Source of the DNA: Butyrivibrio sp.
GTDB taxonomy: Bacteria; Bacillota; Clostridia; Lachnospirales; Lachnospiraceae
Direction of reading: 5' to 3'
Length of the DNA stretch: 64,000 nt
Assembly: GCA_023664865.1 (NCBI GenBank)
Contig: JAMPEU010000002.1
Location: forward strand, 172,092 to 236,091
Shown: positions 5,181-45,319 of the stretch, one piece after another
How positions within the stretch are numbered: position 1 is the stretch's first letter
Layout of the letters: every line of letters starts with the position of its first letter
Translations under genes and position numbers: made by a program
Notes under the pieces: generated by a model
Told to the model about the DNA's origin: nothing
Databases searched by the model: none
The model's input: only the letters and a program-made list of their open reading frames with translations

Positions 5181-5267
5181 AGAGTTTATGTTAAATGAAC
5201 AAAATAAGGAGCGACTTACCGCTTTTCAGGCATGGAGCTCCGTTTTTGTTCATTTAGCATAAACTCG
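5181..5267 (+). repeat. Family A palindromic repeat, copy A1
   Basis: 87 bp from AGAGTTTA to TAAACTCG. Nearly the whole element folds into one hairpin; the apical part is GACTTACCGC...GGCATGGA. Copy-specific stem bases are TGTTAA/TTAGCA (outer) and GGAGC/GCTCC (inner). It starts 8 bases past the stop codon of the minus-strand gene 5276-5623. Same family as 12066, 35623 and 40693. Confidence 0.85.
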
Positions 5268-12006: not shown

Positions 12007-12062
12007 TATTATAATTGCTATTACAATTACTATTACATATTATTACAATTGCTATTTCAATA
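12007..12062. repeat. Degenerate ATTACAATT-type short tandem repeat
   Basis: The A/T-rich stretch contains four imperfect copies of ATTACAATTGCTATT-like units (14-17 bases). It lies between palindrome A2 and the SpoU gene start. Confidence 0.5.
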
Positions 12063-12065
12063 ACC

Positions 12066-12152
12066 AGAGTTTAATCAACATGAACAAAATAAGGGGCGAC
12101 TTACCTCTTTTCAGGCATGGAGCCCCGTTTTTGTTCATGTTGATTAAACTCG
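12066..12152 (+). repeat. Family A palindromic repeat, copy A2
   Basis: 87 bp from AGAGTTTA to TAAACTCG with perfect outer arms ATCAAC/GTTGAT and inner GGGGC/GCCCC. The apical GACTTACC...GGCATGGA sequence is kept (one G to T change). It lies 84 bases past the pfkA stop, in the same orientation relative to the upstream gene as A1. Confidence 0.85.
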
Positions 12153-12240
12153 TCCTGTAAATCACATTTTCACAATTGACTAAACTCGTCCCAGCAAATC
12201 ACATTCTCACAATTTCCTAAACTCGTCCCAGCAAACTACA
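12145..12240. repeat. Triplicated end of palindrome A2
   Basis: The last bases of A2 with about 28 flanking bases are repeated: units start at 12145, 12181 and 12218, each TAAACTCGTCC followed by a shared AAATCACATT.TCACAATT in the first two. The third is cut by the pfkA stop codon region. Confidence 0.75.
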
Positions 12241-13210
12241 ATGCCAGAATCTTGCTCACCTCATATACATACTCCGGAATACTCTTCTGCATATTGAGCG
12301 CTTCCTCGATATCAAAATCCATAAACTCTCCATGCAGATAGCCTACGACTCTGTTCGATTTACCCTCACATAAAATATCCGCTGCATATGCGCCCATTAT
12401 TGAGGCGTAATATCTATCCTTACAGGTTGGCGCTCCGCCACGCTGCAAATATCCAAGAATGGTAGCCCTTGTCTCCATACCGGTAGCCGCTTCAATTCTC
12501 CTTGCCATAGAAGTAGAGTGTCCGATGCCTTCCGCATTAATAATGATATGGTGCGTCTTACCCCTCTTCCTGCTGGCTATTATGTTATTGATAATCTCCT
12601 GCTCGTTATAGTCATATTTTTCAGGCAGAAGTATGTCTTCCGCGCCGTTGGCAATACCGCACCACAAAGCGATATAACCCGCGTTCCTGCCCATAACCTC
12701 AATGATGCTGCATCTTTCATGCGAAGATGATGTGTCACGCACCTTGTCAATCGCCTCCATAGCCGTATTAATTGCGGTATCAAAGCCTATGGTATACTCT
12801 GTACATGCTATGTCCAAATCTATTGTTCCCGGCAGACCGATTGTATTGATGCCCTGCTTGGCAAGCGCCTGCGCTCCACGGTATGAACCGTCTCCGCCGA
12901 TAACGACCAGACCGTCTATTCCATACTTGCGGCATACGTCCGCCGCCTTCTTCTGACCTTCTTCAGTACGCATTTCCGAGCAGCGTGCAGTTCCGAGAAT
13001 GGTTCCGCCGCGCTGGATAGTGTCAGAAACATACCATCTCTCCAAATCCATGATTTCTTCATTCATAAGGCCCTGATAGCCTTTTTTGATTCCCTTAACA
13101 TTAACGCCGTTAGCTAAAGCTTTCCTGACAACCGCACGAATAGCGGCATTCATACCCGGCGCGTCGCCCCCGCTCGTTAAAACGCCTATTGTTTTAATCT
13201 CTTTTGCCAT
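12236..13210 (-). CDS. pfkA: ATP-dependent 6-phosphofructokinase
   Basis: Phosphorylates fructose 6-phosphate in glycolysis. N-terminal GVLTSGGDAPGMN and the GGDGS motif (Gly rather than Asp after GGD) indicate use of ATP, not pyrophosphate. The catalytic loop reads PGTIDLDI, where E. coli has PGTIDNDI; both aspartates are kept. MGRNAGYIALW and YLQRGGAPTCKDR match the substrate-binding blocks. The start at 13210 (MAKEIKT) is supported by AAAGGATGCGAGG upstream; an earlier ATG 10 codons back is less likely. It follows dnaE, a common Firmicutes order. Confidence 0.95.
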   Translation of the reverse strand: MAKEIKTIGVLTSGGDAPGMNAAIRAVVRKALANGVNVKGIKKGYQGLMNEEIMDLERWYVSDTIQRGGTILGTARCSEMRTEEGQKKAADVCRKYGIDGLVVIGGDGSYRGAQALAKQGINTIGLPGTIDLDIACTEYTIGFDTAINTAMEAIDKVRDTSSSHERCSIIEVMGRNAGYIALWCGIANGAEDILLPEKYDYNEQEIINNIIASRKRGKTHHIIINAEGIGHSTSMARRIEAATGMETRATILGYLQRGGAPTCKDRYYASIMGAYAADILCEGKSNRVVGYLHGEFMDFDIEEALNMQKSIPEYVYEVSKILAL

Positions 13211-18222: not shown

Positions 18223-18245
18223 CCTGATATCAGGTAATCAAATCC

Positions 18246-18358
18246 TCTTATTGTTCGCTCTGCCATAAAACAGGCTTATTCGCTCAGGTTGGCACCTTCC
18301 TTACAGGGGTTGCCGTGGCTTCACAGATCCTATGTATCTCCACCACTCTGAATAAGAG
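18246..18358 (-). ncRNA. SAM-I (S-box) riboswitch aptamer
   Basis: On the minus strand the P1 helix is CTCTTATT / AATAAGAG (18351-18358 with 18246-18253). Inside are the conserved S-box segments AGTGGTGGAGATACATAGG, GATCTGTGAAGCCACGGCAACC, and AAGGTGCCAACCTGAGCGA. Gene context (metK) and downstream terminator agree. It binds SAM and favours termination; low SAM allows metK transcription. Confidence 0.95.
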
Positions 18359-21452: not shown

Positions 21453-21578
21453 AATTTTTTCCTCTATCATATAAACACATTTGTAGTTTGTCTGTAATAA
21501 AATTGTAACATTTTATATTTTAGCAACATTTATGCCAAATGTAAAGACAAAATGGGAAGATTTCGTTTTTGGCTGTAG

Positions 21579-21744
21579 CAGTTCAGCCCTCAGGCACATG
21601 GACATATATGTTTCCCTTCGTAGCACGCTCTCGCTCCGTGAAAAACGTAGCGGTACTAAGCTCGAAAATACCTCGCTAAGTACCGGCGTCTTTCAAGGAC
21701 CACTCATGGAAACATATATGTCCATGTGCCTGAGGGCTGAACTG
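21579..21744 (+). repeat. Family B long palindrome, copy B2
   Basis: 166 bp in the divergent spacer between the M23 gene and the response regulator at 21825. Outer arms of 36 bp are perfect complements starting CAGTTCAGCCC and ending GTTTCC. The core is a shorter version of that in B1 (lacks the AAAAGCT hairpin): CACGCTCTCGCTCCGTG, GCGGTACTAAG, CTAAGTACCG, TTTCAAGGA. Confidence 0.85.
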
Positions 21745-21824
21745 TTACTTTTGGCTTTGACATAAAAATCTATTGCGGACAGTTGACTTTTTTATATAAT
21801 AAAAACATAAGGAAGGGAAAGCAT

Positions 21825-32707: not shown

Positions 32708-35590
32708 ATGAAAATTACAGGTCAAAAAATAATCAACGCAAAACGCAATAATAGCAGTTACTCATTTTTTACCGATAACGGTGCGGAACTTATAATAGAT
32801 TATGTTTCCGAAAAGACCATACGCACGGCGGTACGGTTTAATAAGAATGACGACTTTGACAAATCCTATGCCATAGAAGAAATTCATTACAAAGACATTG
32901 ATACCACTATTGAAGAAAACAACAATTTTTACATGATAAACTCTAAATGCATTTCCGTAAAGATCGACAAATCAAATCTAAAAATAGAATACATAAGAGA
33001 CGACGGCATTATTACTTCGGTAAAAGAAATAGGCAAAGACAACGAACAGGTTTACTGTATCCATGATATGAGCGAAAACGAACATTTTTATGGTCTCGGA
33101 GAAGACAACGACGCATATCTGGGCAGCATGGACAGACGCGACACTACGCGCGAACTTGTAACAGGTCAGCGCATCAATATAGGACATGTAACCGCCGATA
33201 TTCCCGTCTCATTTTTTATGAGTACAGGTGAAAATTCGCCATACGGAATTTTTGTCGATAGCAGTTACCGTATAAACTTTGATATGGGTAAAAACAATAC
33301 CTCTGAATATTCATGGAAAAATGACGGCGGAAGCTTTGTGTATTATCTTTTTGGCGGCGATGATTTCAAAGATATATTGAATGAATATACAAACCTTACA
33401 GGGAAACCGTCTCTGCCGCCGTTATGGACGTTTGGATATATTCAGTGCAAATGCTCTTATTGGTGCTGGGACGAGATTGATGAGATTATTGAAACCTTTA
33501 GGGAAAAAAGGATTCCCCTCGACTGTATTGTTTTTGATTTCGACTGGGCGGAAAATTTTCATAATTTTAAGTGGAACAAACGCTGGAAAGGCATGAGCCC
33601 GCAGAAAATTTCCGAGTATAGAAAAGAAGGGCTTCACTTTATGGTGTCAAATTCCGGTCCTATGATACGAAAAGACAGCGATGTTTTTCAAAGCGCGCTC
33701 GACGCTGGGATACTTGCAAAGGATAAGGACGGCAATACGGTTACATGTGGGCATTACGGCGGCGAGCTTATGGATTTTACCAACCCTGATATGAAAGACT
33801 GGATAAAAGATAAGCTTGAAAATCTCATTGACGAGGGCGTTGAAAGCTGGTGGCTCGACCTTACCGAGCCGGAAGGCGATCCCGACGGAACGCAGTATTA
33901 TGCCGGAGATAAAGCAAAAGTGCATAATATTTTCTCTCTTATGAACACCAAGCTTTACAACGAAATAACCCTTGAACACGCTCCCGATAAGCGCCCTTTT
34001 ATACTTACGAGGACCGGTACGGCGGGCATTCAGAAATATAACGTTTCCATATGGTCGGGAGATGTTTTTTCCGATTACAAAACATTTGCCGCCCATATTC
34101 CCGAAGCGCTGAACACCACCATGTCGGGAATACACATGTGGACCAGTGACAGCGGCGGATTTATGTCCTCAACAAGCAACAGTGCGGACAACCGTAACAT
34201 TTATAAAAACGACGCTGCAGCTCATGCCGCCCTGTATGAACGCTGGCTGCAATTCGCTGCGTTTTGTCCCGTTATGCGCGTCCACCATGCAGGGCAGTCC
34301 TCGCCCTTTGTTTTCGGCGAGATGCTCACCGACAGCATCGCTCATTATGTACGGCTGCGCTACAGGCTTATCCCATATATTTATTCATATGCTTTTATTA
34401 CGCATAGCACGGGCGAGCCGCTTATGCGTGCGCTTATTTTCGACTATCCCAACGATAAAAATGTCATCGATATAAAAGACGAATTTTTATTTGGCAGAGA
34501 AATTCTTGTCGCCCCCGTGACCAAAGAAAGAGTTAGCGAAAGAACCGTTTATTTTCCGGATGGTGACTGGTACGATTGGGATTACAGCTATAAATACGAA
34601 GGGGGAAAAAGCTATACTGTTTATGCGCCGCAAAACAGAATCCCCATATTTGTAAAAGGCGGCTCGATTATTCCCATGACGGAACAAGTTTACAATACAA
34701 AGTATATTAACCGTAAAAAAATTAATCTTATAATCTATCCAAAAGATGTGTGCAGTTTTAAGCTTTTTGCCGACGACGGAATATCTTACGGATTTGAAAA
34801 GGGTGACTTCACAGAAACGCTTATCGAATGTTTGGACAATGAACACAGTACAACCATAAATATCACCAACTCCAACATTCTGTACTCTCCGGAAGAATAC
34901 ACATTTGAAATCCATGTTAATGCCAAACCCGTCAATGTTAAATCCGGCGATATGGAACTTGCGCGCTGCGGTTATAAGAATATGCTTAAGAAAATGGAAT
35001 CGGGGTGGTATTTTGACGAGTTCAACAGTGTGCTTTATATCAAAATCAAATCGGCTTTAGCAAAACCTGACACTATTGTCATATCAAATAGTGAAGCAAT
35101 CCGAAAGCCGATTGAAAATACAACCGCTGAAACTGTAAGCGGACAGATGCCTTTTATTCTTCCGCCCGCTTCCATTCCATGCAGGATAAACTGTGAAAAT
35201 TTTGACAGAGGCGGCGAAGGCATTGCGTTCCATAAAACTGAAACTGCAAGCTGCGAACTATATCGAACAGACGGCGTTGAAATAGAACTTTCAGACGACA
35301 TTGGTGCAGGCTATAACATTAAAAGCCTTAAAAAATCCGAGTGGCTTGAATATACGATAAACGTATGCGAAAGCGGCAAATACCGCCTAGAGCTACGTCT
35401 TCAAGGCAGCGGCGTTATCAGCGCGGATTTTGATATGCAGACATTTCTGCCTGAAACCACAGTTAATGAAAGCCGCTGGAATACTGTAAACCTCGATGCC
35501 ATCGAACTAAACGCAGGCGAACAGATACTTCGTATATTTGTACATGACGGCTGCTTTAAGCTAAACTGGATTGAGCTTATCAAAGAGTAG
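32708..35590 (+). CDS. GH31 alpha-glycosidase with C-terminal CBM6-like domain
   Basis: 960-residue cytoplasmic enzyme (no signal peptide). N-terminal beta-sandwich, then the GH31 barrel: LPPLWTFGYIQCKCSYW, nucleophile D384 in WWLDLTEPE, and acid/base D481 in MWTSDSGGF. RYRLIPYIYSYA and GREILVAPV follow. The last 140 residues (about 820-960) are a CBM6/35-like module (NFDRGGEGIAFHKTE, GYNIKSLKKSEWLEYTINV), unusual for an apparently intracellular enzyme. Likely alpha-glucosidase or alpha-xylosidase; specificity is not predictable. AAAGAGGCAGGG lies upstream. It converges on galE with palindrome A3 between them. Confidence 0.9.
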   Translation: MKITGQKIINAKRNNSSYSFFTDNGAELIIDYVSEKTIRTAVRFNKNDDFDKSYAIEEIHYKDIDTTIEENNNFYMINSKCISVKIDKSNLKIEYIRDDGIITSVKEIGKDNEQVYCIHDMSENEHFYGLGEDNDAYLGSMDRRDTTRELVTGQRINIGHVTADIPVSFFMSTGENSPYGIFVDSSYRINFDMGKNNTSEYSWKNDGGSFVYYLFGGDDFKDILNEYTNLTGKPSLPPLWTFGYIQCKCSYWCWDEIDEIIETFREKRIPLDCIVFDFDWAENFHNFKWNKRWKGMSPQKISEYRKEGLHFMVSNSGPMIRKDSDVFQSALDAGILAKDKDGNTVTCGHYGGELMDFTNPDMKDWIKDKLENLIDEGVESWWLDLTEPEGDPDGTQYYAGDKAKVHNIFSLMNTKLYNEITLEHAPDKRPFILTRTGTAGIQKYNVSIWSGDVFSDYKTFAAHIPEALNTTMSGIHMWTSDSGGFMSSTSNSADNRNIYKNDAAAHAALYERWLQFAAFCPVMRVHHAGQSSPFVFGEMLTDSIAHYVRLRYRLIPYIYSYAFITHSTGEPLMRALIFDYPNDKNVIDIKDEFLFGREILVAPVTKERVSERTVYFPDGDWYDWDYSYKYEGGKSYTVYAPQNRIPIFVKGGSIIPMTEQVYNTKYINRKKINLIIYPKDVCSFKLFADDGISYGFEKGDFTETLIECLDNEHSTTINITNSNILYSPEEYTFEIHVNAKPVNVKSGDMELARCGYKNMLKKMESGWYFDEFNSVLYIKIKSALAKPDTIVISNSEAIRKPIENTTAETVSGQMPFILPPASIPCRINCENFDRGGEGIAFHKTETASCELYRTDGVEIELSDDIGAGYNIKSLKKSEWLEYTINVCESGKYRLELRLQGSGVISADFDMQTFLPETTVNESRWNTVNLDAIELNAGEQILRIFVHDGCFKLNWIELIKE

Positions 35591-35622
35591 CCAATCAATC
35601 ACATAGCCATATTCCAATATCC

Positions 35623-35712
35623 AGAGTTTAGAACAAAATGAATACAAGAAGGAGTGACTTACCGCTTTTCCGGCATGGAACTCCTTCTTGTATTCATTTT
35701 GCTCTAAACTCG
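35623..35712 (+). repeat. Family A palindromic repeat, copy A3
   Basis: 90 bp between the converging GH31 and galE stops (33 and 26 bases away). This copy has the most diverged and best paired stem: 33-base arms with 2 mismatches, including ATGAATACAAGAAGGAGT and its exact complement where the other copies have ATGAACAAAATAAGGRGY. The apical GACTTACCGC...GGCATGGA is nearly unchanged. Confidence 0.85.
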
Positions 35713-35737
35713 TGACAGTTGTAACAGTATTGATAAT

Positions 35738-36754
35738 TTAATCTTCATACCCATTCGGATTATTGCTCTGCCATCTCCATGAGTCGGCGCACATATCTTT
35801 TATTCCGTACTGCGCTTCCCAGCCAAGCTCTCTTTTCGCCTTTTCCGCATTGGAATAGCAGGTCGCTATATCGCCCGGACGCCTGTCTTTTATCACATAA
35901 GGAATCTTAACCCCGGTAGCCTCCTCAAAGTTCTTGACAATATCAAGCACGCTGTAACCCGTTCCAGTCCCGAGATTGTAAATGCACAATCCAGCTTTTT
36001 CTTCTATTTTCTTTAACGCCTTAACATGTCCTACCGCTAAGTCTACGACATGGATATAATCGCGCACTCCGGTTCCGTCAGGAGTGTCATAATCGTTGCC
36101 GAATACTCCAAGTTCTTTCAATTTGCCGACTGCAACCTGTGTGATATAAGGCATAAGATTATTAGGGATGCCGTTCGGATTCTCGCCTATGGTTCCGCTC
36201 TTGTGCGCACCGATTGGATTGAAGTAGCGCAGCAGGATTACGTTCCACTCAGGATCCGCCTTCTGCATATCGGTAAGAATCTGCTCCAGCATGGATTTCG
36301 TCCAGCCATAAGGATTGGTGCATTGTCCTTTCGGACATTCCTCTGTTATCGGTATAATTGCCGGATCTCCATATACGGTAGCCGACGAAGAGAAAATAAT
36401 GTTCTTTACATTGTGTTTTCTCATCACATCTACCAATGTCAATGTTCCCGCGATATTATTCTCATAATATTCCCACGGCTTCGCTACGGACTCGCCTACC
36501 GCCTTTAGCCCTGCAAAATGTATGCAGGAATCTATTTTTTCATTATTAAATACTTCTTCTAACGCCGCCCTGTCCAGAATATCTGCACGGTAAAACTTAA
36601 CAGGCTTGCCTGTAATCTTCTCTACGCGCTGTAAAGATTTCTCACTGGAATTGACAAGATTGTCAACTACCACAACATCATAACCTGCATTCTGCAGTTC
36701 CACTACCGTATGGGAACCGATATATCCGGCTCCGCCAGTTACCAAAATTGCCAT
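35738..36754 (-). CDS. galE: UDP-glucose 4-epimerase
   Basis: Interconverts UDP-glucose and UDP-galactose. 338 residues, the usual length. N-terminal [15 protein letters not shown] binds NAD; the catalytic Ser is in SSSATVYG and Tyr/Lys in [23 protein letters not shown] and [11 protein letters not shown] are typical of GalE. It follows a UDP-sugar pyrophosphorylase gene by 35 bases, so the pair can feed hexose-1-phosphate into UDP-sugars without a GalT uridylyltransferase. Confidence 0.96.
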
Positions 36755-36789
36755 AAAAACGCCTCCTGACTTATTTTTATTTTAAAATA

Positions 36790-38016
36790 TTACAATACTA
36801 TACCGTTCTCTTCGCACAATTTTCTTGCGCTCTCTACTGAGTCCACTCCGGTTTTATTTTTAATGGGTGCAAACTCGTTATTCCTAACCACCTCAAACGG
36901 AAGGCAGGACTCAAGCTGGTACACCATATCCAGTACAAGCTGTTCATACTTGCAGCCGTTCGGTTCTTCGGGCTTCACTGTTTCTCCCGCTTCATTCAGA
37001 TAAGGAATCTTCTTCTCTACCACATGGAGCGGAAGCTTCTTTGCCACGATTTCTTCCAAATCTTTTTCCCTGAACAGATAATTAAGGATTACGCCGAAAT
37101 TGTACACCGGCTCTCCGTTTGCATCTTTAGTATTCATAAGCTCGTCGGTCAGTTCATAATATTCCACAATTGACGGTCTGCCGTCCTCTAAGCACATCAC
37201 GCCGATTCTTTCATCGGGAGCATTTTTACGCACTACTTTAGAGCCAACTGCACAACTTTTAAGTATGGTCGCTCCAACGAAGCACGGATCGGCAATCCGC
37301 TGCAATACGTTGTCTACCGCAAATACATTCAACCACTCTATTCCTTCTTTATGCAGCTTATCGACCAGTCCTGCTTTCATCATCGACGAAAACCAGCCGC
37401 CGTTGCCATTTGGCGATGTGGACATCTTTCCCTTAGTCTCCATATATACTTTTCCGTTATAATCAGAAGCTGGCGCCATATCCTGAATGAAAAACGAGAT
37501 ATATTCAGGATTATATCCAAAATAATTTTTTTCTTGCAAAAAGCTCGTAGTCGCCTGATGGTTCTTATCGCTTGTCATAATAAAAAGATGAACCCAAGCG
37601 TCCGTCAGATGCACCACATCCAGCAGATTCTCAATAATGCGCTGGAAAATATAGACATCCTTAGTAACGCCGATATTATATAATCCCTTGGGTGCATCGG
37701 AGCCGAGTCTTGTTCCCATGCCGCCTGCCAAAAGCACTGCCCCCACTTTTCCGGACTTAATCGCATCGATGCCGATTGCCGTAAATTCATCTTTTTTCGC
37801 CTCTATCTCAGAACGCTGCATTACTGAAAGCGGCGTTATTTTACCGCGCGGAGCCGGAGCGTTCCTGTCCTTACATAAAGCCAGCACTTCCATATCAGTA
37901 TCTTCTATCTGCTTGAGCAGTTCCGACTGTTCATTCTGTGTCAACTCATCATAGTATTTCAGAACATGGAGCTGCCCGTATTTCTCTAATTTTGCATACG
38001 CTTCATTATAATTCAT
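36790..38016 (-). CDS. UDP-sugar pyrophosphorylase (UDPGP family)
   Basis: 408 residues. VLLAGGMGTRLGSDAPKGLY is the nucleotide-binding loop of the eukaryote-like UDPGP family (UDP-GlcNAc/UDP-glucose pyrophosphorylases), not the bacterial GalU family. NVFAVDNVLQRIADPCFVG and KVVRKNAPDERIGVM are further family blocks. It makes a UDP-sugar from UTP and a sugar 1-phosphate; coupling to galE suggests glucose/galactose or N-acetylhexosamine 1-phosphates, as in gut bacteria that use host glycans. The start ATG follows GAGG by 7 bases. A structured leader precedes it. Confidence 0.87.
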   Translation of the reverse strand: MNYNEAYAKLEKYGQLHVLKYYDELTQNEQSELLKQIEDTDMEVLALCKDRNAPAPRGKITPLSVMQRSEIEAKKDEFTAIGIDAIKSGKVGAVLLAGGMGTRLGSDAPKGLYNIGVTKDVYIFQRIIENLLDVVHLTDAWVHLFIMTSDKNHQATTSFLQEKNYFGYNPEYISFFIQDMAPASDYNGKVYMETKGKMSTSPNGNGGWFSSMMKAGLVDKLHKEGIEWLNVFAVDNVLQRIADPCFVGATILKSCAVGSKVVRKNAPDERIGVMCLEDGRPSIVEYYELTDELMNTKDANGEPVYNFGVILNYLFREKDLEEIVAKKLPLHVVEKKIPYLNEAGETVKPEEPNGCKYEQLVLDMVYQLESCLPFEVVRNNEFAPIKNKTGVDSVESARKLCEENGIVL

Positions 38017-38036
38017 GGCTATACCTCATATTTCCC

Positions 38037-38190
38037 GCATCGCTTGTTTTTCTTTTGCGGCTATTATTCTATACTCGCAAACTCGCGCTTTCAGCGCTTC
38101 ATGTCCGATTACATCGGACGTTTGCTCGTTAATGCCGCAAGAAAAACAAATGCCGCTTCGCGTCGCTTGCTTTTCTTTTGCGGCTATTAT
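38037..38190 (-). promoter_or_regulatory. Structured leader with duplicated ends before the UDP-sugar pyrophosphorylase gene
   Basis: A 31-base direct repeat with 2 mismatches flanks the region (38037-38067 and 38160-38190). Inside it, TTGTTTTTCTTTTGCGGC (38044-38061) pairs with GCCGCAAGAAAAACAA (38134-38149), enclosing a CAAAC/GTTTG stem and two hairpins, GCGCT-TTC-AGCGC and GTCCGAT-TAC-ATCGGAC: a branched fold. The transcript from the 38186-38214 promoter would contain nearly all of it. Confidence 0.6.
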
Positions 38191-38214
38191 ATCATATATC
38201 CAAAATTTGCTCAA
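38186..38214 (-). promoter_or_regulatory. Promoter of the UDP-sugar pyrophosphorylase-galE operon
   Basis: Minus strand: TTGAGC (38209-38214), 17 bases, TATAAT (38186-38191). Predicted leader about 160 bases. Confidence 0.65.
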
Positions 38215-38273
38215 TAATAGTATAGAGATATTTTTATTTCTTTAACTCCAGCCATAACTCCAGAAAAATAAAT

Positions 38274-38302
38274 TTGACATAACCCCAAAATTAGCATATA
38301 CT
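38274..38302 (+). promoter_or_regulatory. Promoter of the CDF transporter gene
   Basis: TTGACA (38274-38279), 17 bases, TATACT (38297-38302). Confidence 0.75.
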
Positions 38303-38372
38303 ATGTTATTTGAACCACGAATAAACAGCTGTAATAATCCAAGTTTATTCTATATTATCGGAGGGTACATAT

Positions 38373-39302
38373 TTGGACGAATATAAATCATTAGAACACG
38401 CCATACAAGGCGGCATACATATGAAGGCAATAAAAGACAATCCGGCATATAAGGCATCCGCATTGAGCATCGTCGTGAACCTTTTGCTTTCCCTGATTAA
38501 ACTTATAACCGGAATCATCGGCAACTCCAACGCCATGGTCTCTGACGCCATTCACTCTGCCTCAGACGTATTCAGCACCATTGTAGTTATTATTGGCGTA
38601 AAGATGGCGGGTAAAAAGGCAGACAGCGACCACCCCTACGGACATGAGCGCATGGAGTGCGTCGCCGCGATTATTCTCGCCATGCTGCTTGCAATCGTAG
38701 GCGCCGGAATAGGTTTAGCCGGTATAAAAAAGATAGCTGCCGGCAATTATGACAATCTTGTCATTCCCGGTCTGCTTCCGCTCGCTGCCGCTGTGATTTC
38801 CATTGTAGTCAAAGAGTGGATGTTCTGGTATACCAGAGCTGTTGCCAAAAAGATTAATTCCGGCGCGCTTATGGCGGACGCATGGCATCATCGTTCTGAC
38901 GCGCTTTCGTCAATCGGTTCGTTTGCAGGTATTTTATTTGCCAGAATCGGATATCCCATCATGGACGCCGTCGCAGGAGTCATTATAAGCCTGTGCATTA
39001 TCAAGGTCTCCTACGATATATTTAAGGATGGTCTTGATAAAATGGTAGACCATAGCTGCGATAGTGAAACCGAACAGAAGATACGCGAGTCCGTGTTAGG
39101 CGTTGCGGGCGTGCGTGGAATAGACGATTTAAAGACAAGGCTTTTTGGCGATAAGATTTATGTCGATTTGGAAATCTTGTTAGACAGAGAATTAACTTTA
39201 GGAAATGCTCACAAAATCGCGGAACAGGTTCATGATACAATAGAAAAAAACTTTACTACCTGCAAGCACTGTATGGTTCATGTCAATCCTACGGAAGAAT
39301 AA
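38373..39302 (+). CDS. Cation diffusion facilitator transporter
   Basis: 309-residue CDF efflux protein for Zn, Fe, Mn or similar divalent ions, driven by proton antiport. Six membrane helices (about 30-230); the intramembrane metal site is seen as SDAIHSASD in helix 2 and DAWHHRSDALS in helix 5 (HxxxD in both). The C-terminal cytoplasmic domain (about 235-305) ends HCMVHVNPTEE. DHPYGHERME is a strong family marker. The start is a TTG with GGAGG 8 bases before it; an ATG 16 codons later (38421) is the alternative. It precedes a MATE gene by 19 bases, probably co-transcribed. Confidence 0.93.
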   Translation: MDEYKSLEHAIQGGIHMKAIKDNPAYKASALSIVVNLLLSLIKLITGIIGNSNAMVSDAIHSASDVFSTIVVIIGVKMAGKKADSDHPYGHERMECVAAIILAMLLAIVGAGIGLAGIKKIAAGNYDNLVIPGLLPLAAAVISIVVKEWMFWYTRAVAKKINSGALMADAWHHRSDALSSIGSFAGILFARIGYPIMDAVAGVIISLCIIKVSYDIFKDGLDKMVDHSCDSETEQKIRESVLGVAGVRGIDDLKTRLFGDKIYVDLEILLDRELTLGNAHKIAEQVHDTIEKNFTTCKHCMVHVNPTEE

Positions 39303-39321
39303 GGGGAGGCGCTTATATATT

Positions 39322-40668
39322 ATGGAAAAAGATATGACAAAAGGAAGTCCGATGAAACTGATTCTTAGCTTTTCGATTCCGCTATTGTTCGGAGCTCTTT
39401 TTCAACAGTTTTACAGCATGGTGGACGCTATTATAGTCGGACATTATCTCGGCGTAGACGCTTTAGCAGCGGTAGGCGCTACCGGCTCTGTCAACTTTCT
39501 TATTATAGGTTTCTGTCTGGGCGTATGCAACGGTTTTGCTATTCCCATCGCTCAGGAATTTGGCGCGGGCAATGAACGAAATCTGCGTAAATATGCAGCC
39601 GGAAGCGTGCGGCTTTCCGTGATTTTCGCTATTGTCATGACTATAATAGTAGTGCTTCTGTGCCGTCCCATTCTGCAGTTAATGCGCACTCCGTCAAATA
39701 TTATAGACGAGTCTTACAATTACATAGTAGTTATTTTTATGGGCATACCCATTGTCTATCTCTATAACATGACCTCGGCAATAATCCGTTCTTTAGGAGA
39801 CAGCAAAACCCCTGTCATTTTCCTTATCATGTCGGCGCTGCTCAATATCCTATTGGACTGTCTATGTATCACGATATTCCACTGGGGAGTGCGTGGGGCG
39901 TCAATCGCAACAGTCGTATCGCAGGCTGTCGCCGGAATATGCTGTCTGCTCTATATGCGGAAGAAATTCCCGATACTGCATCTTAATAAGGACGATTGGA
40001 TAAAAGATAAAAACTTCATGTTTAAGCTGTGCAACATGGGTTTGCCGATGGGACTGCAATATTCCATTACAGCCATCGGCAGTATAATTTTGCAGAGCGC
40101 CGTCAATGGGATAGGTTCGGATGCGGTTGCAACAGTTACCGCCGGAAGTAAATTAAGCATGTTTTTAGTCTGTCCTTTCGACAATCTGGGTTCTGCAATG
40201 GCTACCTACGGCGGTCAGAACGTGGGAGCGGGTAAGCTTGAGCGTATCGGCAAAGGTTTGAAAGACTGCGTAATCCTGGGCGCGGCATATTCCGTGATTG
40301 CTTTAGGCATTGTCATACTTTTCGGGAAAAATCTGCTGCTGCTTTTCTTAGAGCAGGACGAAATCGCGATTTTAGGCAATGCACAATGGTATCTGTTAAT
40401 GAACGCCTGTTTCTATTTCCCGCTTGCGCTGGTTAATATCGTGCGCTTTCTTATTCAGGGCATGGGATACAGCAAGCTTGCCGTCTTTGCCGGATTTTTC
40501 GAGATGGTGGCAAGAAGCCTGATGGGGTTTGTGATTGTCCCCCTTGTAGGATTTTCCGCAGTCGGTTTTGCCAATCCTCTTGCCTGGGTATTCGCGGATA
40601 TTTTCTTAATCCCCGCATACATATATGCGCGTAAGGATATGGAAAGACGGCTTAGCCGGAACAGCTAG
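39322..40668 (+). CDS. MATE-family multidrug efflux transporter
   Basis: 448-residue protein with twelve predicted helices and the internal two-fold repeat of MATE exporters. The N-terminus KGSPMKLILSFSIPLLFGALFQQFYSMVDAIIVG is typical of the DinF/NorM-like Firmicutes branch, as is GLPMGLQYSITAIGSIILQ at the start of the second half. It exports cationic drugs or metabolites using sodium or proton gradients; substrate unknown. The start at 39322 follows GGGGAGG. It is likely in one transcript with the CDF gene and ends 25 bases before palindrome A4. Confidence 0.93.
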   Translation: MEKDMTKGSPMKLILSFSIPLLFGALFQQFYSMVDAIIVGHYLGVDALAAVGATGSVNFLIIGFCLGVCNGFAIPIAQEFGAGNERNLRKYAAGSVRLSVIFAIVMTIIVVLLCRPILQLMRTPSNIIDESYNYIVVIFMGIPIVYLYNMTSAIIRSLGDSKTPVIFLIMSALLNILLDCLCITIFHWGVRGASIATVVSQAVAGICCLLYMRKKFPILHLNKDDWIKDKNFMFKLCNMGLPMGLQYSITAIGSIILQSAVNGIGSDAVATVTAGSKLSMFLVCPFDNLGSAMATYGGQNVGAGKLERIGKGLKDCVILGAAYSVIALGIVILFGKNLLLLFLEQDEIAILGNAQWYLLMNACFYFPLALVNIVRFLIQGMGYSKLAVFAGFFEMVARSLMGFVIVPLVGFSAVGFANPLAWVFADIFLIPAYIYARKDMERRLSRNS

Positions 40669-40692
40669 TTACAGAATTTTCATGTTCAGGCA

Positions 40693-40779
40693 CGAGTTTA
40701 TGTGACATGAACAAAAACGGGGTTCCATGCCTGAAAAGCGGTAAGTCACCCCTTATTTTGTTCATGTCACATAAACTCT
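40693..40779 (-). repeat. Family A palindromic repeat, copy A4
   Basis: 87 bp, inverted relative to A1-A3, so that it again presents the same strand to the gene that ends before it (the plus-strand MATE gene, 25 bases away). Stem bases TGTGAC/GTCACA and GGGGT/ACCCC pair perfectly and differ from the other copies. Apical sequence conserved. Confidence 0.85.
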
Positions 40780-40819
40780 GGTTATAAAAATAGAGTGTTA
40801 GAAAAGGAGCATAGGGCAT

Positions 40820-41929
40820 ATGGCAGTTACAATTTTTACTATGACACACAAAAAATTTGAAGAACCATCTGATAAAATTTATCTCCCCCTTCACGTAGGG
40901 CGCGCCTGCGGCGAAGATTTAGGATATGCCGGCGATAATACCGGAGACAACATTTCCTTAAAAAACTGTTTTTACGGAGAGCTTACCGGTGTATACTGGG
41001 TGTGGAAAAACGTGAAAACCACGGATTATGTCGGCATATGCCATTACAGGAGATATTTCTGCACGGAAGAGGGCAGGATTCTTAATGAGAAAGATTATCT
41101 GGATATACTAAAAGAATACGATATCATTACTTCCAAAAAGCTTAAGCTGAATTATTCTTATTACGACGGCTATGCAAGCGATTACAATATATACGATTTG
41201 GAGGCCACGGGAGAAGTTATCCGCCGCAAATATCCCGAATATTATAAGAACTTTGAGAAACTTGTGCATGGAAACGGCACATATTTTGCTAATATGATGG
41301 CAGCTGACAAGGCTTTATACGACGAATACTGTACATGGCTGTTTTCCATTTTTGATGAAGCGGAAAAATTAATTAACGCGGAGGGCTATGACGATTACCA
41401 CAAGCGGGTATTCGGCTTTATTTCCGAATTTCTTTTGTTTGTCTGGGTTCAAACCAAAGGGCTTAAAGCCTATGAATGTAAAGTCGGCATGACGACGGAA
41501 AAATATGAAACCAAACAGATGAAAGAGCGTCTGGCAGATTTTTTCCTAAGAAAAGACTTAAAGAACGCAAAAGAATATTTTCTAAGAGAGTTGGAAAAAC
41601 GCCCTGACGTGTTAATGGAAGCCTCGGACATTACAGGCGAGCTTAAGCTGTCCATGCAGGTAATCGCGGTCTGCGAACTTGAACAGGCGGAATATGACAC
41701 AAGCGTCATTGACAAGATACAAAAATTTGATGAGCTGATGCACTACTTCAACGAACTAAACGAGCTAATTAATTCTTTCCGTATGGGAAATGCAAAAGAA
41801 GAAGATATCCGCTCCGTCAAACTCTTAGAAGTATCGGATATCGCCATAGAAGCCTCTGCGAGGCTCTTCTGCACGCATGAAGACGAACTTGCACAAGTCG
41901 TTCAAGCGGTTAAAGACGCATTGCTCTAA
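40820..41929 (+). CDS. DUF4422 glycosyltransferase-like protein
   Basis: 369 residues. The first 230 match DUF4422, found in capsule and exopolysaccharide glycosyltransferases: IYLPLHVGRA, LTGVYWVWKN, DYVGICHYRRYF, and YDIITSKKLKL. The last 130 residues are helical and rich in charge, an extension not needed for the domain. No membrane segment. GGAG precedes the start by about 11 bases. It faces an MBOAT/DHHW O-acetylation pair, so a role in surface polysaccharide is plausible but there is no full polysaccharide locus here. Confidence 0.85.
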   Translation: MAVTIFTMTHKKFEEPSDKIYLPLHVGRACGEDLGYAGDNTGDNISLKNCFYGELTGVYWVWKNVKTTDYVGICHYRRYFCTEEGRILNEKDYLDILKEYDIITSKKLKLNYSYYDGYASDYNIYDLEATGEVIRRKYPEYYKNFEKLVHGNGTYFANMMAADKALYDEYCTWLFSIFDEAEKLINAEGYDDYHKRVFGFISEFLLFVWVQTKGLKAYECKVGMTTEKYETKQMKERLADFFLRKDLKNAKEYFLRELEKRPDVLMEASDITGELKLSMQVIAVCELEQAEYDTSVIDKIQKFDELMHYFNELNELINSFRMGNAKEEDIRSVKLLEVSDIAIEASARLFCTHEDELAQVVQAVKDALL

Positions 41930-44526: not shown

Positions 44527-44627
44527 GTCGGACTCTCCATCATAAGAACAATATTATAAGTAAACCATTGTTTCTATAATATCGCACCCATAGGTTTTTT
44601 ACAAGTATGCAATTCCATTTTTCATAA

Positions 44628-44806
44628 CAGTTCAGCCCGCGGACACATGGACGCATATATTTCCCTGAGCGGTCCTTGGAAAACGCCGGCACTTAGTGAA
44701 AAAGCTGCTTTTTAGCTTTTGAACTTAGTACCGCTGCGATTTTCCACGGAGTGAGAACGTGCCGCTCAGGGAAATATATGCGTCTATGCGTCCGCGGGCT
44801 GAACTG
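44628..44806 (-). repeat. Family B long palindrome, copy B3
   Basis: 179 bp between the MBOAT start and the DUF2812 stop; the right arm ends exactly where the stop codon (44807-44809) begins. The 45-base arms (CAGTTCAGCCCGCGGACAC...CTGAGCGG) pair with about one mismatch. The core matches B1 on the opposite strand, including the AAAAGCT/AGCTTTT hairpin; the outermost 11 bases match B2. Confidence 0.85.
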
Positions 44807-45319
44807 TCACTTCTTTTCCTTTAGTTTGTCAATTACATCCTTAGTTTTTTTAACCGCCCCAAACATCATAATCATCGGTATTCCAACGATAATGGCAAAT
44901 ATAAAGCCCATCATTCCAGCGCCTGCAAACATTGCAAAAATTTCTATCACAAAGCAAACCAGTATAATCATCGCTGCTCCTTTGAACATATTATATATTT
45001 TAGTATAATGCTCTATGCTTGAATCTATATCCGTATATAATTCAAACTTGCCTTCCGAAGCAGGTTTACGCAGTATTATCCAATATCCCCATGTCTGCAC
45101 AATCTCCACGCCCATCTCTTCCATCAGTTCCCTGTATTCATCGCTGACCTCGAACATTTTAGTACCCATGTCCATCTGATAAAGCCATCTTTCATCCTTA
45201 CGCTTTTCAAAGTTATAAAATCCGGCAAAGAATCCCGTCAGCGTCCAGCCTTCTTCCGACATCCTGTTTAACCAGTTCACTTCCTCGTCTTTATCAAAAT
45301 ACATACGAAACTTAAACAT
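44807..45319 (-). CDS. DUF2812 membrane protein
   Basis: 170 residues. The first 95 form a DUF2812 domain (FRMYFDKDEEVNWLNRMSEEGWTLTGF, YEF-like YRELMEEMGVEIVQTWGYWIILRK), the last 60 hold two membrane helices (about 118-155). DUF2812 proteins are usually encoded right after a PadR-type regulator, as here with an 8-base overlap, and may bind or export a compound sensed by it. Function not established. Confidence 0.87.
   Translation of the reverse strand: MFKFRMYFDKDEEVNWLNRMSEEGWTLTGFFAGFYNFEKRKDERWLYQMDMGTKMFEVSDEYRELMEEMGVEIVQTWGYWIILRKPASEGKFELYTDIDSSIEHYTKIYNMFKGAAMIILVCFVIEIFAMFAGAGMMGFIFAIIVGIPMIMMFGAVKKTKDVIDKLKEKK

Follow-up and report, generated by a model that had tools for sequence, protein, structure and literature searches.

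A MITE-like family of palindromes in Butyrivibrio with complementary, diversifying stem arms

Four palindromes in the window

The window, i.e., the whole stretch of 64,000 nucleotides of Butyrivibrio sp. that was analysed, features four palindromes of about 90 bp, all of which were found where a sequence-only reading had located them. The palindromic cores of copy 1 (5181..5267, plus strand) and copy 2 (12066..12152, plus strand) each lie between two minus-strand ORFs. Copy 3 (35623..35712, plus strand), in which a small internal loop is absent, is situated between convergent ORFs, and copy 4 (40693..40779) between two plus-strand ORFs. The latter is a minus-strand copy and aligns with the other three after reverse complementing. 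On contig C103 of the own genome (G000), the corresponding covariance model matches are 177269-177362 (model R1), 184154-184247, 207711-207807 and 212780-212873, respectively, and within the window the family model marks these four places only. For copy 2, the complete unit probably extends from CAATTGCTATTTCAATAACC to CACAATTG (12046..12178, plus strand), as judged by eye from a comparison with the outer repeats of relatives. The outer ends of the window copies look eroded, and the terminal inverted repeats (TIRs) are weaker and eroded in G000. On the 3' side of copy 2 (12152-12250), the element's right end (CTAAACTCGTCC...CACAATT) is tandemly repeated with a period of about 36 bp, and tandem copies of the right half likewise follow the L030 copy of the same genome (G000:C123:15633-15882).

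Folding of the four copies resulted in z-scores of -9.3 to -12.2, and for each copy none of 200 shuffles folded as well. The sequence-only reading had described stems that always stay paired, which is nearly true, the exceptions being one G-T pair in the copy at 5181 and one A-C mismatch in the copy at 35623, both in the outer block. As to its second description, shared ends around a fixed apical segment, the copies proved to share their ends (CCAGAGTTTA...TAAACTCGT) along with the inner arm and the greater part of the apex, but the apex is not strictly fixed: the copy at 12066 features CTTACCTC instead of the CTTACCGC found elsewhere, and the copy at 35623 TTCCGG instead of TTCAGG. Read in one orientation, with copy 4 reverse complemented, the four copies differ in a complementary block of the stem. 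The statement that no named family was known agrees with a scan of the window against Rfam, in which the palindromes had no match at gathering scores; a relaxed Rfam search of four loci returned only matches far below these scores. The only Rfam match in the window is a SAM riboswitch on the minus strand (18245-18358).

Distribution of the family

A covariance model was derived from 48 copies in four genomes. The search that the sequence-only reading had proposed, with such a model in the own genome and in other Lachnospiraceae, yielded many copies, as the 145 model rows of the own genome represent 114 distinct places after removal of other-strand duplicates, the weakest of them being partial. 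In the genus, 13 of 77 genomes matched the model (E <= 1e-6), and in a sample of the family 7 of 299 genomes did so (E 1e-5, own genome included), both searches having been run with stricter filters by which weak matches are lost. The other six genomes of the family sample belong to six other genera, and three of them feature one weak match each. BLAST with copy 1 matched 4 of 61 genomes. The exact core pattern was found in 69 stretches of named records, mostly of Lachnospiraceae or Clostridiales MAGs, with the others being scattered. In viral contigs, one element pattern had 0 exact matches. The apex varies between subfamilies, and a recurrent GA/GA step next to the inner stem was noted by eye. 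In the one literature collection searched, no paper was recognised as describing this palindrome family.

Termini, duplications and empty sites

Complete copies are non-coding, have a length of about 143 bp and carry TIRs, and some of them are accompanied by target-site duplications of 10-12 bp. These duplications were observed at copies of the sister genomes G010 and G084 and of G257, a genome of another genus with a young expansion of the family, rather than at the window copies. In G257, the whole unit runs from TAGGCATTTGCGAAAC to TTTCGCAATTACCTA with the TIR ends TAGGCATTTGCGAAAC / TAGGTAATTGCGAAAG. The TIR motif has 230 matches in this genome compared to 1 match of a reversed control pattern. 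Direct repeats of 10-11 bp occur beside several G257 copies, three of them being clear by eye, with none clear beside others. Among the 20 elements of G010/G084 with both ends recognised, 4 have repeats that are exact over 10-12 bp, and in a further 3 the repeats contain one mismatch. Flank profiles also revealed the outer inverted repeats. The comparison of G010 with G084 showed some sites in common and others at which the whole unit is absent, the missing segment exceeding the palindrome in length, while some of the 'empty' sites look rearranged or deletion-like. With its terminal repeats, duplications, empty sites and patchy distribution, the family is a mobile element of the MITE-like type, and the MITE features found are a many-copy non-coding unit, TIRs, target-site duplication and empty sites. 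A transposase or autonomous partner was not found between TIR pairs 300-4000 bp apart in the DNA searched: nine rows of such pairs were obtained, and the seven enclosed ORFs that were tested are all host-type genes.

Besides, in two genomes, G084 and G020, one arm of the element was found to be interrupted or replaced by a small palindrome, ACAGATAATTTACGAAGTAAATTTTCTGT or a near form of it (L263:10250-10405; L094, L111, L123). Right-type ends on both sides (GTCACGAAC...GTTCGTGA) occur at L256:14690-14860 and L216:7427-7513, as if two inverted copies had recombined.

Genomic placement and orientation

Of 152 placed elements, 130 lie between two called genes, 11 inside a called ORF and 11 at an edge. 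The 130 intergenic elements are distributed over 18 convergent, 20 divergent and 92 co-directional gaps, the background of 804 gaps comprising 79, 154 and 571, respectively; a clear enrichment between convergent genes was not found (18/130 versus 79/804 background gaps). In co-directional gaps, antisense copies outnumber sense copies (65 to 27, p=9e-5). Assigned by GC skew, the antisense copies of these gaps comprise 55 lagging versus 4 leading and the sense copies 2 versus 21. A bias for the replication strand was considered and rejected, as the convergent (3 v 13) and divergent (7 v 10) gaps do not reproduce this pattern; the orientation bias therefore goes with transcription and not with the replication strand. 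It would fit an avoidance of terminators on the sense strand. In sense orientation, the GC-rich inner hairpin is followed by a T-run and appears terminator-like by eye. A terminator scan restricted to loops of 3-8 did not list the two copies in the region 35000-41500.

Coupled changes of both stem arms

Across the 48 copies, 98.1% of 1344 stem cells are paired, compared to a shuffled mean of 87.4%, and two-sided changes occur in 20 of 28 stem pairs. The covariation score amounts to 0.343, with 0.133 for shuffled controls and <=0.088 in slid registers. Pairing and score above these controls demonstrate that the co-varying stems noticed in the four window copies are real. The rows of this alignment were chosen as good matches; less biased are an automated count of family and control repeats and a structure-blind search in G257, both given below.

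Changes in place were read at 12 hand-checked orthologous loci of G010 and G084, the flanks of which have diverged at 586 of 5769 sites (~10%). In about 274 stem cells (model-aligned arms, 12 x 23 less two with N), 15 compensated two-arm changes were found that are still paired, two of them with a possible alignment shift, where about one was expected. The same cells also contain 2 two-arm changes of other kinds and 11 one-arm changes; in eight of these one-arm changes, the cell is paired in G084 and mismatched in G010. Reading the pairs from folds instead gave 13 compensated doubles in 300 cells of the same 12 ortholog pairs. The pairs E000/E143, E040/E073, E012/E102 and E045/E136 were aligned and excluded, as the palindrome-adjacent sequence did not align, and matched rows with large gaps or without an element on the other side were also left unused. 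Within the elements, changes affected 33 of 168 sites of the variable block, about twice the flank rate per site (p=3e-4), whereas the outer arm (3/168), the inner arm (9/216) and the inner stem with the apex (14/350) changed less than the flanks.

For the automated count, family and control repeats were identified from G010 only, and their counterparts were then read in G084. An inverted repeat was assigned to the family if it lay no more than 60 bp from a called element, and one gapped family repeat was dropped. Compensated doubles amounted to 25/521 in 21 family repeats versus 1/648 in 48 control inverted repeats (p ~2e-8), the control repeats having shorter arms, so that 'long palindrome' and 'this family' are not separated by this comparison. 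Single changes from paired cells comprised 24 other, 23 A-C and 23 G-U in the controls and 14 other, 2 A-C and 2 G-U in the family.

The young copies of G257 show the same coupling. In 39 aligned copies, the outer-arm sites differ at 3/546 and the innermost five pairs at 0/390, the apex at 5% and the outer flanks of the unit at 12% and 8%. Seven distinct compensated doubles (16 cells), six of them transversions, are located in pairs 12-16, and single-arm cells in the same pairs number five, including three in one degenerate copy. The structure-blind search, in which both 6-nt blocks were left free, returned 57 places on each strand (114 in total), and many of these are single copies found on both strands. 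Among the matches listed, there are 68 forward copies, 64 of which feature perfectly complementary 6-nt blocks of 14 kinds, while the remaining four have 1, 1, 1 and 3 mismatches. Coupled change of both arms arises in place and exceeds the expectation for independent mutation.

Explanations for the complementary arms

Covarying stems are commonly taken as the best evidence of functional RNA, and the strong covariation of this family is what a terminator, attenuator or small RNA would exhibit if the transcribed hairpin were selected and followed classical compensatory evolution. The GC-rich inner hairpin with the subsequent T-run in sense orientation agrees with such an element, as does the surplus of antisense copies in co-directional gaps (65 v 27), by which a sense copy is not neutral for transcription. 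Nevertheless, an RNA element is improbable. The outer-stem cells of 148 copies of G010 and G084 comprise 3230 Watson-Crick pairs, 57 G-U, 41 A-C and 40 other combinations; G-U is nominally higher than A-C but the excess is not significant (57 v 41, p=0.13), and the surplus runs against the transcribed orientation, with 7 v 12 in sense and 31 v 18 in antisense copies. Moreover, 15 of 22 coupled changes are transversions and 7 are transitions, and those 15 thus cannot have passed through G-U. The gap classes are close to the background (convergent 18/130 v 79/804), and a match to Rfam at gathering scores is lacking. The sequence-only reading had seen in the paired changes a sign that a folded molecule, RNA or single-stranded DNA, is under selection. 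For a mobile element without a significant G-U excess, with transversions in 15/22 coupled changes and with doubles arising in place, an interpretation of the covariation as selection on RNA is not supported, and it is the DNA side of that statement which fits better.

Selection on a DNA hairpin or cruciform would imply that a protein (transposase, nucleoid or replication protein) needs the paired stem and that the mutations themselves are independent, mismatched copies being lost or immobile and doubly changed ones surviving. The absence of a strand preference among the mismatches fits a DNA hairpin, and the ends, inner arm and apex (3/168, 9/216, 14/350) are more conserved in place than the flanks (~10%), hence something is selected. 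Very large populations, furthermore, can fix double changes quickly. Still, independent mutation combined with the loss of mismatched copies cannot account for 15 doubles where about 1 is expected, short of an unusually rapid fixation of double mutants, and the 39 young G257 copies contain 16 coupled versus 5 single-arm cells in the same pairs. This explanation of the coupling is therefore less likely, yet a serious rival. Gene conversion between copies, in which a tract of about 90 bp would exchange both arms at once, could draw on dozens of copies with conserved ends, and some blocks do recur among copies. Donor copies are possible for three changed pairs, whereas for either member of five others the 148 G010/G084 copies include no donor with the same two-arm block. 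As gene conversion moves diversity about and does not create it, it is very improbable as the source of the coupled changes. Template switching at the hairpin, which would alter both arms in one event, is preferred with moderate confidence.

The best reading of the family, with a probability of roughly 0.6, is a MITE in which one hairpin arm serves to rewrite the other when the DNA is replicated. Its stem comprises an outer and an inner arm, both conserved, the latter together with the apex; the block of about 6-10 bp that separates the two varies freely in sequence yet stays complementary. The hairpin presumably forms in single-stranded DNA at replication, where a polymerase might copy one arm from the other by quasipalindrome or template-switch correction, and a change in a single arm would then be lost again or be passed on to the other arm as well. 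The outer arm, the inner arm and the apex drift little, presumably because the copies require these parts, the most likely role being recognition by a putative transposase. The arm-copying mechanism is deduced from end states. Two findings stand against it in its plain form: the transversion excess of the coupled changes (15/22 v 217/586 in the flanks, the latter with 369:217 transitions to transversions, p=0.006) is not predicted by simple copying of ordinary mutations, and the variable block changes faster than the flanks, beyond what plain arm-to-arm copying predicts. For the G257 coupled changes alone, compared to the G257 single changes (50:44), the difference gave p=0.06. A rather doubtful extension is an active rewriting of the block, with a hairpin-opening step at replication or movement after which an error-prone, transversion-rich polymerase would write one arm from the other. 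If this were true, a mobile family would keep making new, always complementary blocks within an otherwise fixed hairpin, and would do so faster than the surrounding DNA changes.

Comparison with known systems

Prokaryotic MITEs are likewise described as short, non-coding, AT-rich and intergenic, with TIRs, direct repeats and a stable stem-loop (PMC10969869). In the available text of that source, the long central palindrome with a diversifying two-arm block was not found described. REPINs and REP sequences, which go with Y1 (RAYT) transposases, are also dispersed extragenic hairpins with conserved ends, and REPINs also show compensated changes in their spacer, so that the pattern is not without parallel by the account in PMC3116915. 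The palindrome family differs from REPINs by its outer terminal repeats and 10-12 bp duplications. A REP/REPIN system with RAYT was considered and rejected: PF01797 is absent in 6 of 13 carrier genomes, including the copy-rich G000 and G020, with at least one match in each of the other 7. Separately, G022, a genome of the genus, features 16 Y1-transposase (PF01797) matches and no match to the palindrome element.

The bcr1 element of the Bacillus cereus group, called mobile in a title cited in PMC2267715, similarly has a length of 147-167 bp and a conserved stem-loop, the likeness being one of description. For the stem-loop families treated there, the available text makes no mention of compensatory change (0 occurrences), unlike the palindrome family. 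Comparable in mechanism is the proposed maintenance of hairpins by template switching, in which both stem arms would be written in one event (PMC8794818). That work deals with RNA genes, and its authors call the evidence for stem maintenance circumstantial, whereas the stem described here belongs to a mobile element without an RNA signature. In rRNA, a route through G-U was open to 61% of the instantaneous compensatory changes (PMC8794818), compared to 7/22 in the palindrome family. What sets this MITE apart is a stem block that diversifies and yet is complementary in nearly all cases.

A natural family with dozens to more than 100 copies per genome thus exhibits strong covariation in mobile DNA without an RNA signature, which is a warning against equating covariation with RNA function in dispersed repeats. 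Its orthologous loci, control repeats and young expansion provide a replicated natural system for distinguishing two-step selection from a single template-switch event.

Other palindromic repeats in the window

A second palindromic repeat is located at positions 44627-44807 of the window, with arms of 46 nt and 89 nt between them. In the own genome, it is represented by at least 51 rows at E <= 0.001, some of them on the other strand, with 40 of 184 candidates scored. The palindrome at 21575-21748 looks similar to this repeat.
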